Source: Acidimicrobiales bacterium
GTDB taxonomy: Bacteria; Actinomycetota; Acidimicrobiia; Acidimicrobiales; MedAcidi-G1
Direction of reading: 5' to 3'
NCBI GenBank assembly: GCA_028823445.1
Contig: JAPKBH010000013.1
Span: 1-50,837, forward strand
Length of the DNA stretch: 50,837 nucleotides
The position numbers and the translations under genes were made by a program. The notes under the pieces were generated by a model. It had not been told where the DNA came from. It ran no database searches and saw only the letters and a list, made by a program, of their open reading frames with translations. Below, in pieces: positions 302-10,789 of this stretch. The number at the start of each line of letters is the position of its first letter. The first letter of the stretch is position 1.

Positions 302-685
302 CTATTTTTGGCCGATGAACTGGTAGAGCTTGTCTTTGGGGCGTCCTACGCAGGCTTCTAATGGGCCGGAGCTTTCGAGGTTGCCACGTACCAATACTGG
401 GCGTTGCAACAAAGCTTTTCGGTCGGCCAACAAAGCCACCACGGCTTCTGGGTTGCCTACATAGTCGTCAGCATTGAGTTCACGCTTTTTGAACTGTGAG
501 TCTTTGCGTACGAGGTCTTCTACTGGTCCGTCTAAGCCGGCGGCGATGCGGGTCAGTAGTTCTGCCGTGGGGGGCTCTTTCATGTAGAGCACCACGTTGA
601 TTTCTACTCCGAGTTCCTCAGCGACCGCTAAGGCATTTTTTGAGGCGTGTCAATGGGGGTTATGAAAAACGGTGAGGTTGGTCAT
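302..685 (-). CDS. ArsC/Spx-family selenoprotein (Sec at codon 12, TGA at 650-652)
   Basis: Read through one in-frame TGA, this is a 127-residue thioredoxin-fold protein of the ArsC (arsenate reductase-like) family. It begins MTNLTVFHNPH-U-HASKNAL: the TGA falls where the family has its catalytic Cys (HNPxC). Downstream it has the usual family blocks: VVLYMKEPP, VRKDSQFK, DDYVGNPEAVVALL, QRPVLVRG and VGRPKDKLYQFI, including the three Arg of the ArsC anion site. The ATG at 685 has an upstream AAGGGG and lies 12 bp after the PII gene's stop. A hairpin with a GGUC loop follows the TGA by 23 nt (separate entry). One other Cys is near the C-terminus. The gene would be miscalled as an N-terminally truncated ORF starting downstream of the TGA. 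Real substrate unknown; arsenate or a protein disulfide are both possible. A nonsense pseudogene is unlikely because the rest is intact and a second gene at 2832 shows the same feature. Confidence 0.85.
616..633 (-). promoter_or_regulatory. bacterial SECIS-like hairpin of the first ArsC selenoprotein
   Basis: CCTTAGC (633-627) pairs with GCTGAGG (622-616) in 7 bp including one G-U, closing a GGUC tetraloop. The loop starts 23 nt after the in-frame UGA. Bacterial SECIS elements sit immediately 3' of the UGA with a loop G that SelB recognises; the E. coli fdhF element also has GGUC in its loop. The fit in distance and loop is good; SelB binding is inferred. Confidence 0.75.
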
Positions 686-2831: not shown

Positions 2832-3176
2832 ATGAGCGATCGCCTGTTGTTGTACCACAATCCTGTTTGAGGAAAGTCTCGTGGCGCCTTGAGCCTTTTG
2901 GAAGAGCGCAACGTCGAGTTCGACGTCATCAACTACCTTGAAAAACCTTTAGACCGCTCCACCCTGCAAGGGTTTTTGGATCTTCTCTCCGGCCCTCCGG
3001 CTGACCTAGTGCGGGCCGACCCGGCCAACGGCATTGACCCCACCGGCCTAAGCGCCGAACAAATTGTGGACCTTTTGTTAGCCCACCCCAAGGCGATGCA
3101 ACGCCCGGTGGCGGTACTCGGCCATCGAGCAGTCATTGCTCGGCCTTCGGATTTAATTCTTGATTTGCTGCCTTAA
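2832..3176 (+). CDS. ArsC-family selenoprotein (Sec at codon 13, TGA at 2868-2870)
   Basis: Read through one TGA this is a 114-residue ArsC-family protein: MSDRLLLYHNPV-U-GKSRGALSLLEERNV. In arsenate reductases of this family the motif is YHNPxCSxSR, so the TGA replaces the catalytic Cys exactly. The remainder follows the family: INYLEKPL, a VRADPAN block with Arg, LLLAHPKAMQRPVAV, and IARPSDLILDLL. All three anion-site Arg equivalents are present. There is no other Cys in the protein, so the enzyme would rely on an external thiol partner such as a glutaredoxin or mycothiol. The gene is leaderless, stands alone, and its stop lies 3 bp from that of convergent rsgA. A hairpin follows the UGA (separate entry). 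Function as arsenate reductase or thiol oxidoreductase is inferred from family only. Confidence 0.87.
2880..2913 (+). promoter_or_regulatory. candidate SECIS hairpin of the second ArsC selenoprotein
   Basis: CGT-G-GCGC-CTT (2880-2890) pairs with AAG-A-GCGC-A-ACG (2902-2913), giving 10 bp with one bulged A and one G-A mismatch. The 11-nt apical loop starts with G, 20 nt after the UGA, inside the usual bacterial window. The stem is less regular than that of the first gene and other folds are possible. Confidence 0.5.
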
Positions 3177-5521: not shown

Positions 5522-6835
5522 ATGACCAACCATCACAACGCGCAAATTGATCTCGCTTGGCTTACCCAACGTTTGGGTTACGGCATGAGTCCTGATGAGC
5601 AAACGAACCTAGACGGCGTTGATCCAACTACTGTGCTGGCTCGCCGATTGGACCCAGAGTCACACGGGGTAGCTATACCTCCGAGCCCCTTTGAAGGGTT
5701 AGGTGATCTCATTCCGCCCGACATTGACCCCGATAATTTTCCGGCTTTACGTCGGGCCGCTTACCAGCAGCTTTTAGGAATTTGGCTCGACGAACTTCGA
5801 GACACTTCAGACCCTTTGCTGGAATGGATGACCTTTTTTTGGCATGACCATTTTGCAGTAACCAGTGAAGTGGTACTTAACCCGGTGATCATGGTTAACC
5901 ATCTTTCTTTGTTGCGGCAGCATGCTCGAGGAAACTTCGGCGACTTGTTGCGAGCGGTCACCCTTGACCCGGCCATGCTTATTTTTCTTGATGGCCGATC
6001 CAGCGTGGCGAGGCAACCCAACGAGAACTATGGCCGTGAACTTTTGGAGCTTTATTCCATTGGGGTGGAGCACTACACCGAAGCCGATGTTGTCGCTGCT
6101 GCTTCTGCGTTGACCGGTTGGCAAATACAACCTGGGGACGGCGGGACGGCAGTTTTTTCTGCCCGACGCCACGATGACACCCACCGGACCCTGCTGGGGG
6201 CAAGCGGAGTACACGATGTAGACACGGTGCTCGATGCTGTATTGAATCACCAAGCATTACCTGGTTTCATTGCTGGCAAATTAGCTGCATCTATTTTGGG
6301 AAACGACTTTGACGAAAATCAGGTACCTGAATTTGCCCATGTTTTTGCCAACCACAACCTTGACCTTGCCCCGCTGATCTCCGCTATCGCAGAAGCAGGA
6401 TTGGCCTTAACCAGTCGTTCTCCTTTGGTGCGTCACCCGGTGAGTTGGCTCACCAATGCCGAAAAAACTACCGGCGCGCGAATAGACACCCGGGCACGTG
6501 CCCACATTTTGCATTCCATGGGAATGGTGCCTGGTCGACCGCCTCATGTGGGTGGGTTTCCTCCACCGGAGAACTATCTCAATGCTTCTTCTACCGCCGC
6601 ACGCTTTACCAGCGCTGGGTTGGTGGCCAACCAGGCCCCCGAAGATTCGTTGGCTTTGGCTGCTGCTTCAACGGGAGATTGGCAAACCTTGGCTTCGCTG
6701 CTGGGCCGGCCTCAAGGCTTCTCTGCCGCTTCACTTTCTGCTTTAGATGGTCTTAAAGATGCGACTCCTTCTGGCCAACAGGGTCGCAACTGTTTAGCTC
6801 TGTCCTTATCCACCCCCGACTTTTTGGTGATCTGA
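5522..6835 (+). CDS. DUF1800 family protein, copy 1
   Basis: A 437-residue DUF1800 protein. Typical family segments: WLTQRLGYGMSPDE at the start, WMTFFWHDHFAVTSEV near residue 100, LLRQHARGNFGDLLRAVTLDPAMLIFLDGR, then NENYGRELLELYSIGVEHYTEADV, and a C-terminal RHPVSWL...MGMVPGRPPHVGGFP block. The biochemical function is unknown; DUF1800 genes are commonly next to DUF1501 genes, as here. No signal peptide is seen. The stop overlaps the next start as TGATG, so the two are coupled. It is about as long as copy 2 at 8148 and clearly paralogous to it. A weak CATGAT box lies 6 nt before the start. Confidence 0.9.
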   Translation: MTNHHNAQIDLAWLTQRLGYGMSPDEQTNLDGVDPTTVLARRLDPESHGVAIPPSPFEGLGDLIPPDIDPDNFPALRRAAYQQLLGIWLDELRDTSDPLLEWMTFFWHDHFAVTSEVVLNPVIMVNHLSLLRQHARGNFGDLLRAVTLDPAMLIFLDGRSSVARQPNENYGRELLELYSIGVEHYTEADVVAAASALTGWQIQPGDGGTAVFSARRHDDTHRTLLGASGVHDVDTVLDAVLNHQALPGFIAGKLAASILGNDFDENQVPEFAHVFANHNLDLAPLISAIAEAGLALTSRSPLVRHPVSWLTNAEKTTGARIDTRARAHILHSMGMVPGRPPHVGGFPPPENYLNASSTAARFTSAGLVANQAPEDSLALAAASTGDWQTLASLLGRPQGFSAASLSALDGLKDATPSGQQGRNCLALSLSTPDFLVI

Positions 6836-8124
6836 TGAACGAAAACTTAAACCGACGACGCTTTCTTTATCTCGCTGGCGGGGCTACCGCAGCGGCCGCC
6901 ACAGGTGCTGCAGCGTGGGCTGGCTTGCTTCGAGAACAAGTCAACGGAGCGCCGACGCTAACTTTGCCAGGTCTCACCACGACCACCACCAGCATGACGC
7001 CGACCACCACCACTTCGTTGGCCCCGGGCCAAGGCCCCAAAAACCCAGTATTAGTTATTGTGCAGATGCAAGGCGGCAACGATGGCCTCAACACTCTGGT
7101 ACCGCTTAACGGCCGTTACCAAGATCTTCGCCCCACGTTGGCGCTCGGCGACCACGAGATGCTTGACCTTTCAGACGCTCAAGATTTTGCTCTCCACCCA
7201 GCGCTGGCCCCGTTGTTGCCTTTGTGGGAAAATAACTTGTTGACTGGGGTGACCGGTATCGGTATTCCTGGTCAGGGCCGGTCACATTTTACGGCCAGCG
7301 ATAGTTGGCATAGTGGCCGTACCAGCCCAGAGACCACCGGCTGGTTAGGCCGCTGGCTTGATGCCACCGCCAACGGCCCGGCCAATCCTTTGCGGGCCGT
7401 GTCTTTGGGGGGCGGAGCACCTATTTTGACGGCAGAGTCACAGCTCTCTACCATCATTAACTCGCCTCGCAATTTTCGTTTATCTACCCCTCCGGGTTCG
7501 GATAGCGAAGCCATCGTGGCGGCTTTTTTACAGACCGCTTCACCTCTTTCTGGTGACCCCACTTTGGCCGCTGCGCAAATGGCTATCCCTTCTACCTTGG
7601 AGGCCATTGAAGTACTCGGGGTCGACAGTGGGGTTACGGCGGACGAGCCACCGGAGGAGAACTACACCTCGTTGCTTGACACGGCGGCTGGGCTCATTGA
7701 TTTAGATGTCGGGACTGAGGTCATCGTGGTCAGCGTGCATGGTTTCGATACTCACTCTGATCAACGAAGCCGGCAAGAAAAACTGTTGGCCAATCTGGCG
7801 GCGGGCTTGGCTTCCTTTCATCAACGCCTGGAGGCCAATGGCCACGCCGACCGGGTGCTCATTATGACCACCAGCGAGTTTGGCCGCCGGGTACAGGAGA
7901 ACGCTTCGGGCGGCACCGACCACGGTACGGCTGGGGCGCAGTTTATTATTGGCCCCAACCAGGGCATCATTGGCCAAGTTGATTTGGATAATTTAGTGGA
8001 CGGCGATGTACCTATTGCGGTAGACACCCGATCCATGTACGCCACTGCTCTTGATTGGCTCGGTGGCCCCACCGACGAAATCCTCGGCAAAAAATACGAC
8101 CGCTTGCTTGATAACTTGCCCTAG
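6835..8124 (+). CDS. DUF1501 family exported protein, copy 1
   Basis: A 429-residue DUF1501 protein with a twin-arginine signal: NRRRFLYLAGG followed by an Ala-rich hydrophobic stretch, then a Thr-rich linker (TTTTTSMTPTTTTS). The family core starts at PVLVIVQMQGGNDGLNTLVPLNGRY, continues with GIPGQGRSHFTASDSWHSGR, and ends with TTSEFGRRVQENASGGTDHGTAG and DWLGGPTDEILG. DUF1501 is related to the alkaline-phosphatase/sulfatase superfamily and is Tat-exported; its substrate is unknown. It starts inside the TGA of the DUF1800 gene. A fragment of its 3' end recurs at 12839-12910. Confidence 0.9.
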   Translation: MNENLNRRRFLYLAGGATAAAATGAAAWAGLLREQVNGAPTLTLPGLTTTTTSMTPTTTTSLAPGQGPKNPVLVIVQMQGGNDGLNTLVPLNGRYQDLRPTLALGDHEMLDLSDAQDFALHPALAPLLPLWENNLLTGVTGIGIPGQGRSHFTASDSWHSGRTSPETTGWLGRWLDATANGPANPLRAVSLGGGAPILTAESQLSTIINSPRNFRLSTPPGSDSEAIVAAFLQTASPLSGDPTLAAAQMAIPSTLEAIEVLGVDSGVTADEPPEENYTSLLDTAAGLIDLDVGTEVIVVSVHGFDTHSDQRSRQEKLLANLAAGLASFHQRLEANGHADRVLIMTTSEFGRRVQENASGGTDHGTAGAQFIIGPNQGIIGQVDLDNLVDGDVPIAVDTRSMYATALDWLGGPTDEILGKKYDRLLDNLP

Positions 8125-8135
8125 TCGGTGCCTGC

Positions 8136-8141
8136 TAGAAT
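8136..8141 (+). promoter_or_regulatory. -10 box before DUF1800 copy 2 (leaderless)
   Basis: TAGAAT ends 6 nt before the GTG at 8148, so the second cassette may have its own leaderless promoter within the 23-bp gap after copy 1. Confidence 0.5.
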
Positions 8142-8147
8142 CTTTTT

Positions 8148-9461
8148 GTGGTCACCTCAGACAAGATTGCCAGCGACCTCGCTTGGCTTACCCAGCGCTT
8201 GGGTTACGGGTTAACCCCCGACGAACAAAGCCAACTCGAGGGAATCCGTCCTGCCACCTTGCTGGCTCGCTGGGTTGATCCAGAGAGCCATGGTTTGGTC
8301 ATCCCTCCTGATCCTTTTGAAGGATTGAGCGAACCTATTCCCTTAAGTTTGAAGGATGAAGAACTAGCAAATCAGCGGCAAATGATTTCTGAACAATATT
8401 TAGAGGCATGGCTTAACGAACTCCTCACTACAGCCGACCCGTTGTTGGAGTGGATGACCTTTTTTTGGCATGACCATTTTGCGGTGACCAAAACTGCGGT
8501 AGGTGACCCGCTCACTATGGCCAACCACATCTCTTTGTTGCGCCAACATGCTCGAGGAAACTTCGGTGACTTGTTGCGGGCCGTCACCGTTGATCCGGCC
8601 ATGCTTATTTTTCTTGATGGTAGTTTGAGCGTGGGGGAACAGCCCAACGAGAACTTTGGCCGCGAACTTATGGAGGTTTACTCCATCGGAGTAGAGCACT
8701 ACACCGAAGCCGATGTGGCGGCCGTCGCTTCGGCTTTAACCGGCTGGGAGATACCGGAAGGCGATACCGGAGCGGCGGTTTTTTCTGCCTGGCGCCACGA
8801 CGATACCCCTCGCACTTTATTAGGGGTCAGTGGAGTACACGATGTAGAGACGTCACTTGATGTGATCCTGGGTCACCCGGCACTGCCCGGATTTATTGCG
8901 GGAAAACTGGCCAAAGCTATTTTGGGTAACGATTTTGACGTAAACCAGGTACCGGAATTTGCGGAAGTTTTCGCCCGCCACGATCTAGAAATTTCTCCGC
9001 TTATTACCGTTATTGCTCAAGCCGGCTTGGACAAAACCAACCGTTCTTCGTTGGTGCGCCACCCAGTAAGTTGGCTCATTAATGCCCTAAAAACTACCGG
9101 GGCTCAGCTCAGTTTCGACGATCAGTCTCACTTCTTAAGGACCAGCAATATGTTGCCCGGCCAGCCACCACACGTGGGTGGGTTTCCGGCCCCCAAGGAT
9201 TACCTAAGCGCCTCGTGCACAGCCGTACGCTTTACCGCCGCCGGTAAAATAGCGCACTTGACCCCCAGAGATTCCTTAGTTTGGGCCGCCGCTACTTCCG
9301 GGGATTGGGATGCCTTGGCAACTCTACTGGGTTGCTCCGCAGGGTTTTCCGATGCCTTGCTCTTCACCTTGCGTGAGCTCTGGGTTAATGTTCCGATCCG
9401 CAAACATGGCATAAGTTGTTTAACTCTGGCCTTAGCCTCTCCCGATCTTTTGATGGTCTGA
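8148..9461 (+). CDS. DUF1800 family protein, copy 2
   Basis: A 437-residue paralogue of the gene at 5522 with the same segments (WLTQRLGYGLTPDE, WMTFFWHDHFAVTKT, RGNFGDLLRAVTVDPAMLIFLDGS, NENFGRELMEVYSIGVEHYTEADV) and the same length. The start is a GTG with no ribosome-binding site but a good TAGAAT box 6 nt upstream. Its TGA overlaps the next ATG as TGATG exactly as in copy 1, showing that the two-gene cassette was duplicated as a unit. Function unknown. Confidence 0.9.
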   Translation: MVTSDKIASDLAWLTQRLGYGLTPDEQSQLEGIRPATLLARWVDPESHGLVIPPDPFEGLSEPIPLSLKDEELANQRQMISEQYLEAWLNELLTTADPLLEWMTFFWHDHFAVTKTAVGDPLTMANHISLLRQHARGNFGDLLRAVTVDPAMLIFLDGSLSVGEQPNENFGRELMEVYSIGVEHYTEADVAAVASALTGWEIPEGDTGAAVFSAWRHDDTPRTLLGVSGVHDVETSLDVILGHPALPGFIAGKLAKAILGNDFDVNQVPEFAEVFARHDLEISPLITVIAQAGLDKTNRSSLVRHPVSWLINALKTTGAQLSFDDQSHFLRTSNMLPGQPPHVGGFPAPKDYLSASCTAVRFTAAGKIAHLTPRDSLVWAAATSGDWDALATLLGCSAGFSDALLFTLRELWVNVPIRKHGISCLTLALASPDLLMV

Positions 9462-10789
9462 TGAGTCACCACTTAAATCGACGGCGTTTTCTTTACCTTG
9501 CTGGTGGAGCCACAGCAGCCACCGCTACCGCCGCTGCCGCGTGGGCTGGCCTACTACGAGAACAAATCAAGCGAGGCCCCTCCTTAACCTTGCCTGGCAT
9601 CGCTGGTTCAACGACCACTACCTCTACGACCACTACCTCAACGACCACTACCTCAACGACCACCGTGGCGCCCACCACTACCTCGTTAATACCAGGCCAG
9701 GGTCCCCGAAAACCAGTGCTAGTTGTCGTGCAGATGCAAGGCGGCAACGATGGGTTAAACACCTTGGTGCCCCTCAACGGTCGCTATCAAGATGCTCGCC
9801 CTACTTTGGCCTTGGGCGACCACGAGATGCTGGAACTTTCTGGTAACCAAGATTTTGCTTTGCACTCTGCCTTGGCCCCTTTATTACCTTTGTGGGAAAC
9901 CAACTTATTGACTGCAGTGACCGGCATTGGTATCCCCGGTCAGGGCCGATCGCATTTTACGGCCAGCGATAGTTGGCACAGCGGCCGCACCGACCGAGGG
10001 GTCACCGGTTGGTTGGGGCGTTGGCTTGATGCCACGGCAAGCGGTCCGGCCAACCCTCTACGGGCCGTTTCTCTGGGCGGCGGTGCCCCTATTTTGGCCG
10101 CTCAACAACAACTCTCCACCTCCATACATTCACCACAAAATTTCAACCTCTATACCCCACCCGACTCCGACGGGGAAACGCTGATTGATGCTTTCCTTCG
10201 GGTCGCTTCGCCACTTTCCACGGATCCCACCTTGGCCGATGCCCAACAAGCAATTTTTTCTACCTTCAGTGCCTTAACCGCACTTGAGATAACCGCCGGC
10301 AACCCAAGCCCATGGTCGGGCGAAGAGACCTACACCACGCTGTTAGATACCGCAGCCAATCTTATTAACCTTGATCTCGGCACCGAGGTGATCGTGGTCA
10401 GCGTGCATGGTTTTGATACCCACTCTTATCAGCGCAGCGCTCACGAAGAGTTGCTGACTAATCTGGCTGATGGCTTAGCTTCCTTTCATCAACGTTTGGA
10501 AGCCGACGGCCACGCCGACCGGGTATTGACGGTGACCACCAGCGAGTTTGGCCGCCGACTTGAAGAGAATGGTTCGGCCGGCACCGACCATGGCACCGCC
10601 GGGACACAATTCATCATTGGCCCCAACCAGGGAATAATCGGCCAAGTTGATCTGGATAATTTGGTCGACGGCGACGTACCTATTTACGTAGACACTCGGT
10701 CCATGTACGCCACCGCTTTAGATTGGTTAGGTGGCCCCACCGACGAAATCCTCGGCCAAAAATACGACCGCTTGACAGCAACTATTTAA
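9461..10789 (+). CDS. DUF1501 family exported protein, copy 2
   Basis: A 442-residue paralogue of the 6835 gene. The start is the ATG inside the TGATG junction; an upstream in-frame ATG would overlap the DUF1800 gene and add a non-homologous tail. It has the Tat motif NRRRFLYLAGG, a hydrophobic Ala-rich segment, a longer Thr/Ser linker (about residues 50-80) from a 15-bp DNA repeat, then the DUF1501 core with GGNDGLNTLVPLNGRY, GQGRSHFTASDSWHSG and SEFGRRLEENGSAGTDHGTAG. Its TAA overlaps the ATG of the protease gene (TAATG), so this copy is coupled to the protease and lipoprotein genes. Confidence 0.9.
   Translation: MSHHLNRRRFLYLAGGATAATATAAAAWAGLLREQIKRGPSLTLPGIAGSTTTTSTTTTSTTTTSTTTVAPTTTSLIPGQGPRKPVLVVVQMQGGNDGLNTLVPLNGRYQDARPTLALGDHEMLELSGNQDFALHSALAPLLPLWETNLLTAVTGIGIPGQGRSHFTASDSWHSGRTDRGVTGWLGRWLDATASGPANPLRAVSLGGGAPILAAQQQLSTSIHSPQNFNLYTPPDSDGETLIDAFLRVASPLSTDPTLADAQQAIFSTFSALTALEITAGNPSPWSGEETYTTLLDTAANLINLDLGTEVIVVSVHGFDTHSYQRSAHEELLTNLADGLASFHQRLEADGHADRVLTVTTSEFGRRLEENGSAGTDHGTAGTQFIIGPNQGIIGQVDLDNLVDGDVPIYVDTRSMYATALDWLGGPTDEILGQKYDRLTATI
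9609..9670 (+). repeat. 15-bp tandem repeat coding for a Thr/Ser linker
   Basis: The unit ACGACCACTACCTCA recurs about four times with single-base changes (CTCT/CTCA) and encodes TTTTS repeats in the DUF1501 copy 2 linker. Copy 1 has a shorter version, so repeat-number change explains part of the length difference. Confidence 0.85.

Follow-up and report, generated by a model that had tools for sequence, protein, structure and literature searches.

The gene at positions 2832 to 3176 (+) of the window, i.e. of the whole 50,837-nucleotide stretch of DNA analysed here, very probably encodes a selenoprotein of the ArsC family, as judged from sequence comparisons and a structural model. The overall reading that we consider likely is that of an ArsC with a selenocysteine (Sec) nucleophile, made by SelB-dependent read-through at UGA 2868 and presumably reducing arsenate. 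The frame extends from ATG 2832 to TAA 3174-3176, and its sole interruption is a TGA at 2868-2870, in agreement with the coordinates given by an earlier sequence-only reading. Translation of the TGA as Sec yielded a product of 114 amino acids (MSDRLLLYHNPVUGKSRGALSLL...), in which U is residue 13 and takes the position of the catalytic Cys of ArsC. The active-site loop is thus YHNPVUGKSR. It had been claimed to match YHNPxCSxSR at every other position; it does match YHNPxCxxSR, yet the residue following U is G, as it is in R773 ArsC (CGTSR). The translation bore out the claim that the protein contains no other Cys, and therefore the selenol of Sec13 would be its only thiol-like redox residue. 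A longer N-terminus is impossible because an in-frame TAG at 2820 precedes ATG 2832 by 12 nt. Conventional gene calling would produce merely an ORF of 95 amino acids with a TTG start.

The product matched Pfam ArsC (PF03960) with 32.9 bits at a gathering cut-off of 24. The observation is not due to chance, given this score and the TGA found at the same column in 63 additional loci, which are paralogues or come from other assemblies. The best NCBIfam model was TIGR00014 arsC with 84.1 bits; the equivalog cut-off of 106.05 bits was not reached by the window protein, and certain close Sec and Cys relatives exceed it with 108-113 bits. The Spx-related model TIGR01617 scored 35.8 bits.

An AlphaFold2 model, in which Sec was folded as Cys, had a mean pLDDT of 94.5 and the thioredoxin-like fold of ArsC. 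Its best PDB matches were ArsC proteins (TM mostly 0.77-0.88; among them 3rdw with 0.85 and 1jzw with 0.86), followed by Spx; PDB titles among the matches include C12S and R60 mutants. A comparison with R773 ArsC had been proposed in the sequence-only reading. By established biochemistry, the active site of R773 ArsC consists of C12 with R60, R94 and R107. The three arsenate-binding arginines align with R61, R91 and R104 of the window protein, U13 takes the place of the nucleophile, and the model superimposes on the E. coli enzyme with a TM of 0.86. The E. coli plasmid R773 enzyme (1I9D, 1JZW; TM 0.83-0.86) shares fold, active-site loop and arginines 60/94/107 with the window protein, but has a Cys nucleophile and is about 25 residues longer. 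Among 45 sequences N10, the Sec/Cys column, Y35, R61, R91 and P92 were invariant, and R104 was conserved in at least 90%. The good structural match to Spx (TM 0.83) raised the question of an Spx-type regulator instead of an enzyme. We consider this very unlikely and rejected it: the sequence profile strongly prefers arsC, the ArsC arginines are present, and the motif is UxxS and not the CxxC of Spx.

A search for homologues in 198 same-order genomes gave a match in 123 of them, and an alignment was built from 107 rows, taken from these and from five outside relatives. In the 107 rows the codon at the Sec column was TGA in 65, TGC in 39 and TGT in 3 cases, and nothing else. As L002 repeats L022 this corresponds to 64 distinct TGA loci versus 42 rows with a Cys codon. 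The in-frame TGA is thus located where homologues have Cys, and the search for a Cys/Sec exchange among orthologues, as suggested beforehand, found this site to be TGA or a Cys codon exclusively. Orthologues devoid of the upstream codons and of Cys/Sec at the site were looked for as evidence against the gene; both features were kept in the orthologues. The N-terminal segment through HNP is preserved in homologues, and the ATG of the nearest relatives aligns with 2832.

A tree of 105 rows required seven changes between Sec and Cys (bootstrap range 6-9; 32.7 with shuffled labels), at least three of them demanded by well-supported branches. Therefore Sec and Cys were probably exchanged several times during the history of the family. 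In this tree the window gene lies among Sec genes of its own family, which form a clade. Cys-containing ArsC proteins of proteobacterial and Binatota MAGs (L052-L056) are 51-60% identical to the window protein and share the HNPVCGKSRGAL motif, but have Cys at the site and show no selection for a hairpin. One of these, L053, stems from a record titled Klebsiella pneumoniae MAG (CAMBZJ010000029.1), and its ArsC clusters with sequences of alphaproteobacterial and Myxococcota/Binatota MAGs; the Klebsiella label of this record may be wrong.

The genome itself encodes the complete machinery for Sec: a tRNA-Sec(UCA) with 63.4 bits, above the Rfam cut-off and with the anticodon TCA, SelA and SelB adjoining on one contig (C59), and SelD (L019, G000:C38:40067-40987). 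Because SelD carries one in-frame TGA, it is probably a selenoprotein, too. The Sec form of ArsC was found in 57 genomes with selA and in one without (G170, an assembly of 83% completeness), while genomes with only the Cys form were divided into 18 with and 17 without selA. The association is significant with a Fisher p of 3.7e-8, which covers genomes with an examined ArsC and is to be taken as a guide because these genomes are related.

Two other explanations of the TGA were considered. One is that the gene is a pseudogene or carries a sequencing error, TGC having become TGA, in which case the 95-aa ORF behind it would be a remnant; a gene caller would indeed report just this TTG-started ORF at 2889-3176. 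We regard this as exceedingly improbable. Numerous species share this TGA, in assemblies that are separate and with the frame intact before and after it, and both the selA association and the selection on the hairpin described below speak against decay; the explanation was rejected since TGA recurs at this codon only. The other is that TGA encodes Trp or some other standard amino acid through a genome-wide altered code or plain suppression, to which the frame being open once TGA is read would conform. Yet TGA terminates 9 of the 27 open frames of at least 300 codons in the window, from which we conclude that recoding is local and the code unchanged. With Cys as the invariable exchange partner and with tRNA-Sec, SelA, SelB and SelD present, the chance of an altered code or of suppression is negligible, and this explanation was rejected as well.

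Insertion of Sec should require a SECIS element downstream of the UGA. The comparative tests described in the following support a candidate bacterial SECIS hairpin at 2884-2909 (+), with the stem GCGCCUU / AAG-A-GCGC, a bulged A and a G-led apical loop at about 2891-2901. The sequence-only reading had the hairpin start 20 nt after the UGA; this holds approximately for the apical loop, but the stem begins 13 nt past the UGA. Its proposal to fold 2868-2920 gave nothing, because this segment folded alone was no better than its shuffles (z = +0.47), and so the SECIS is backed by comparison between genes and not by folding of the single sequence. Likewise, minimum free energy z-scores against codon shuffles did not distinguish the Sec group of the window gene from Cys genes (p 0.62), and RNAalifold on the gapless alignment found a SECIS in neither Sec group.

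With positions numbered from the UGA, the hairpin model runs from pair 17-42 to pair 25-33 and has a 3' bulge at 38; it was examined in the 16 Sec genes of the window-gene group. There, 79% of the cells were paired compared to 35-57% in slid versions of the model, four pairs had changes on both sides, and the covariation score was 0.263 versus a shuffle mean of 0.147 (0 of 500 shuffles). The window gene forms seven of the nine pairs (G17-C42 to U23-A35), the G-led loop starting at position 24. Upon synonymous recoding Sec genes kept 7.12 of nine pairs compared to 5.26 expected (0 of 2000). On the other hand, the nearest Cys homologues were at the null with 6.4 pairs versus 6.48, as were all Cys genes with 4.88 versus 4.81. 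Because the hairpin had been chosen by eye, it was retested over 1850 geometries. The Sec group yielded the lowest attainable p of 0.003, also after thinning to nine genes, and its best geometries centred on the chosen hairpin (inner pair 25-33, loop of 7). The near Cys homologues gave a p of 0.79, and all Cys genes one of 0.02 at another geometry. The significance of all these comparative tests is inflated because the Sec sequences are mutually related. Taken together, Cys/Sec exchange at one column, co-occurrence with selA, the complete Sec machinery and the comparative SECIS signal uphold the original proposal of an ArsC-family selenoprotein, and insertion of Sec at residue 13 by SelB-dependent read-through is strongly supported by the sequence data.

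The gene had been described as the second of its kind in the window. Indeed, a paralogous ArsC-family selenoprotein was identified at 302-685 (-) by its read-through frame and the homologue alignment: 127 amino acids via a TGA at 650-652, with HNPHUHASKN as active-site motif and likewise UxxS. The tree places it in another Sec clade, larger than that of the window gene. Its predicted SECIS hairpin, CCUUAGC-GGUC-GCUGAGG at 616-633 (-), occupies positions 20-37 from the TGA in the alignment. In 17 genes, which were chosen for the GGUC loop, the consensus was CCUURGC-GGUC-GCYGAGG with 99% of the cells paired and a covariation of 0.348 versus 0.180. GGUC is the loop of E. coli fdhF as well. In this group the energy z-scores did separate Sec from Cys genes (p 0.001), and by these sequence measures the SECIS of the paralogue is a cleaner element than that of the window gene. 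In one subset of the Sec-ArsC genes (L075, L083, L099, L100, L103, L109, L114, L115 and L116) the GGUC loop is missing and AAUGC-CGUGC-GCAUU stands in its place, which makes this a third type of downstream element. A scan of the window for further read-through frames of the UxxC/UxxS type returned mostly chance-looking frames; family support was obtained for the two ArsC genes alone.

How would the enzyme work? The hairpin at 2884-2909, once encountered by the ribosome, would let SelB and Sec-tRNA(UCA) decode UGA 2868 as Sec, with TGA remaining a stop elsewhere in the genome. If catalysis resembles that of R773 ArsC, R61, R91 and R104 would hold the arsenate for attack by Sec13. The ensuing selenol-arsenate adduct would be resolved to arsenite by a low-molecular-weight thiol together with glutaredoxin or mycoredoxin, and the selenol regenerated. 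Compared with thiols, selenols have a lower pKa and are stronger nucleophiles. For the window protein, the substrate, the reductant and the cycle of catalysis are inferred. With some reserve, we favor arsenate as the main physiological substrate. The genome contains one glutaredoxin-family gene. The candidate for MshC scored 429.5 bits, below its cut-off of 485.1, and does not establish mycothiol. Three CysS/MshC-like genes are present, two of them adjacent (L133, L134 and L135; G000:C37:39893-42260 and C35:109829-110923).

The genomic context does not resemble that of R773 ArsC, which is encoded within an ars operon. The neighbours of the window gene include asparaginase and RsgA, and no ars genes are among them. 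A search of the genome (an assembly of 95% completeness) for the two arsenite exporters Acr3 and ArsB found neither, which leaves arsenite export unaccounted for. These two results, together with the TIGR00014 score below the arsC equivalog cut-off and a weak glutaredoxin match of 19.2 bits, speak for an ArsC-fold selenoprotein engaged mainly in glutaredoxin-like or other thiol/selenol redox reactions. Yet the three arsenate-binding arginines are retained family-wide, the nearest folds are ArsC, and TIGR00014 (84 bits) is far above TIGR01617 (36 bits); we thus consider a principal role other than arsenate reduction possible but rather unlikely. Still more doubtful is the idea, raised by the failure to find ArsB or Acr3, that neither Sec-ArsC paralogue takes part in classical arsenic detoxification any longer and that both act as selenol redoxins on another oxyanion or a protein substrate. 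As the paralogue at 302-685 (-) lies immediately downstream of a PII (glnB-like) gene, that copy would perhaps be tied to nitrogen regulation. Elsewhere in the window, 5522-10789 (+) has the look of a tandem duplication with two similar successive gene pairs, each coding for a 437-aa protein (with DUF1800 in the first) and then for a protein of 429 or 457 amino acids starting with NRRRFLYLAGGATAA.

An arsenate reductase with Sec in a UxxS motif is of a kind catalogued since 2005, when the Sargasso Sea selenoproteome yielded 14 sequences (COG1393; PMC1088965), followed by 77 sequences of 'ArsC 1' (pfam03960) in the GOS survey (PMC2398784) and by its listing in a 2022 review (PMC9312934). In view of these reports the window gene is a well-supported further member. 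The Sargasso Sea and GOS proteins belong to the same family, with UxxS, Sec at the catalytic Cys and a downstream bacterial SECIS, but are metagenomic fragments, whereas the window gene is part of a genome with the whole Sec machinery, a nearby Sec-ArsC paralogue and a WhiB, which points to an actinobacterial host. A 2026 review of the prokaryotic selenoproteome lists arsenate reductase (TIGR00014; MBT3519430.1) with the same UxxS and describes the functions of such selenoproteins as largely uncharacterised to date (PMC13188914). In contrast to that TIGR00014 family, the window protein scores below the cut-off and is about three residues shorter in the segment following R61. Nothing relevant turned up when the literature was searched for selenoproteins of Acidimicrobiia.

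The present analysis adds the host context, a pair of paralogues that share a locus but differ in their SECIS elements, and a matched Sec/Cys series. The gene is a clean case of a known selenoprotein family in its full genomic context. Because a standard gene caller would truncate it to an ORF without the active site, genes of this type are likely mis-annotated. With close Sec and Cys homologues from genomes with and without selA, the gain from Sec in the ArsC active site is directly testable.
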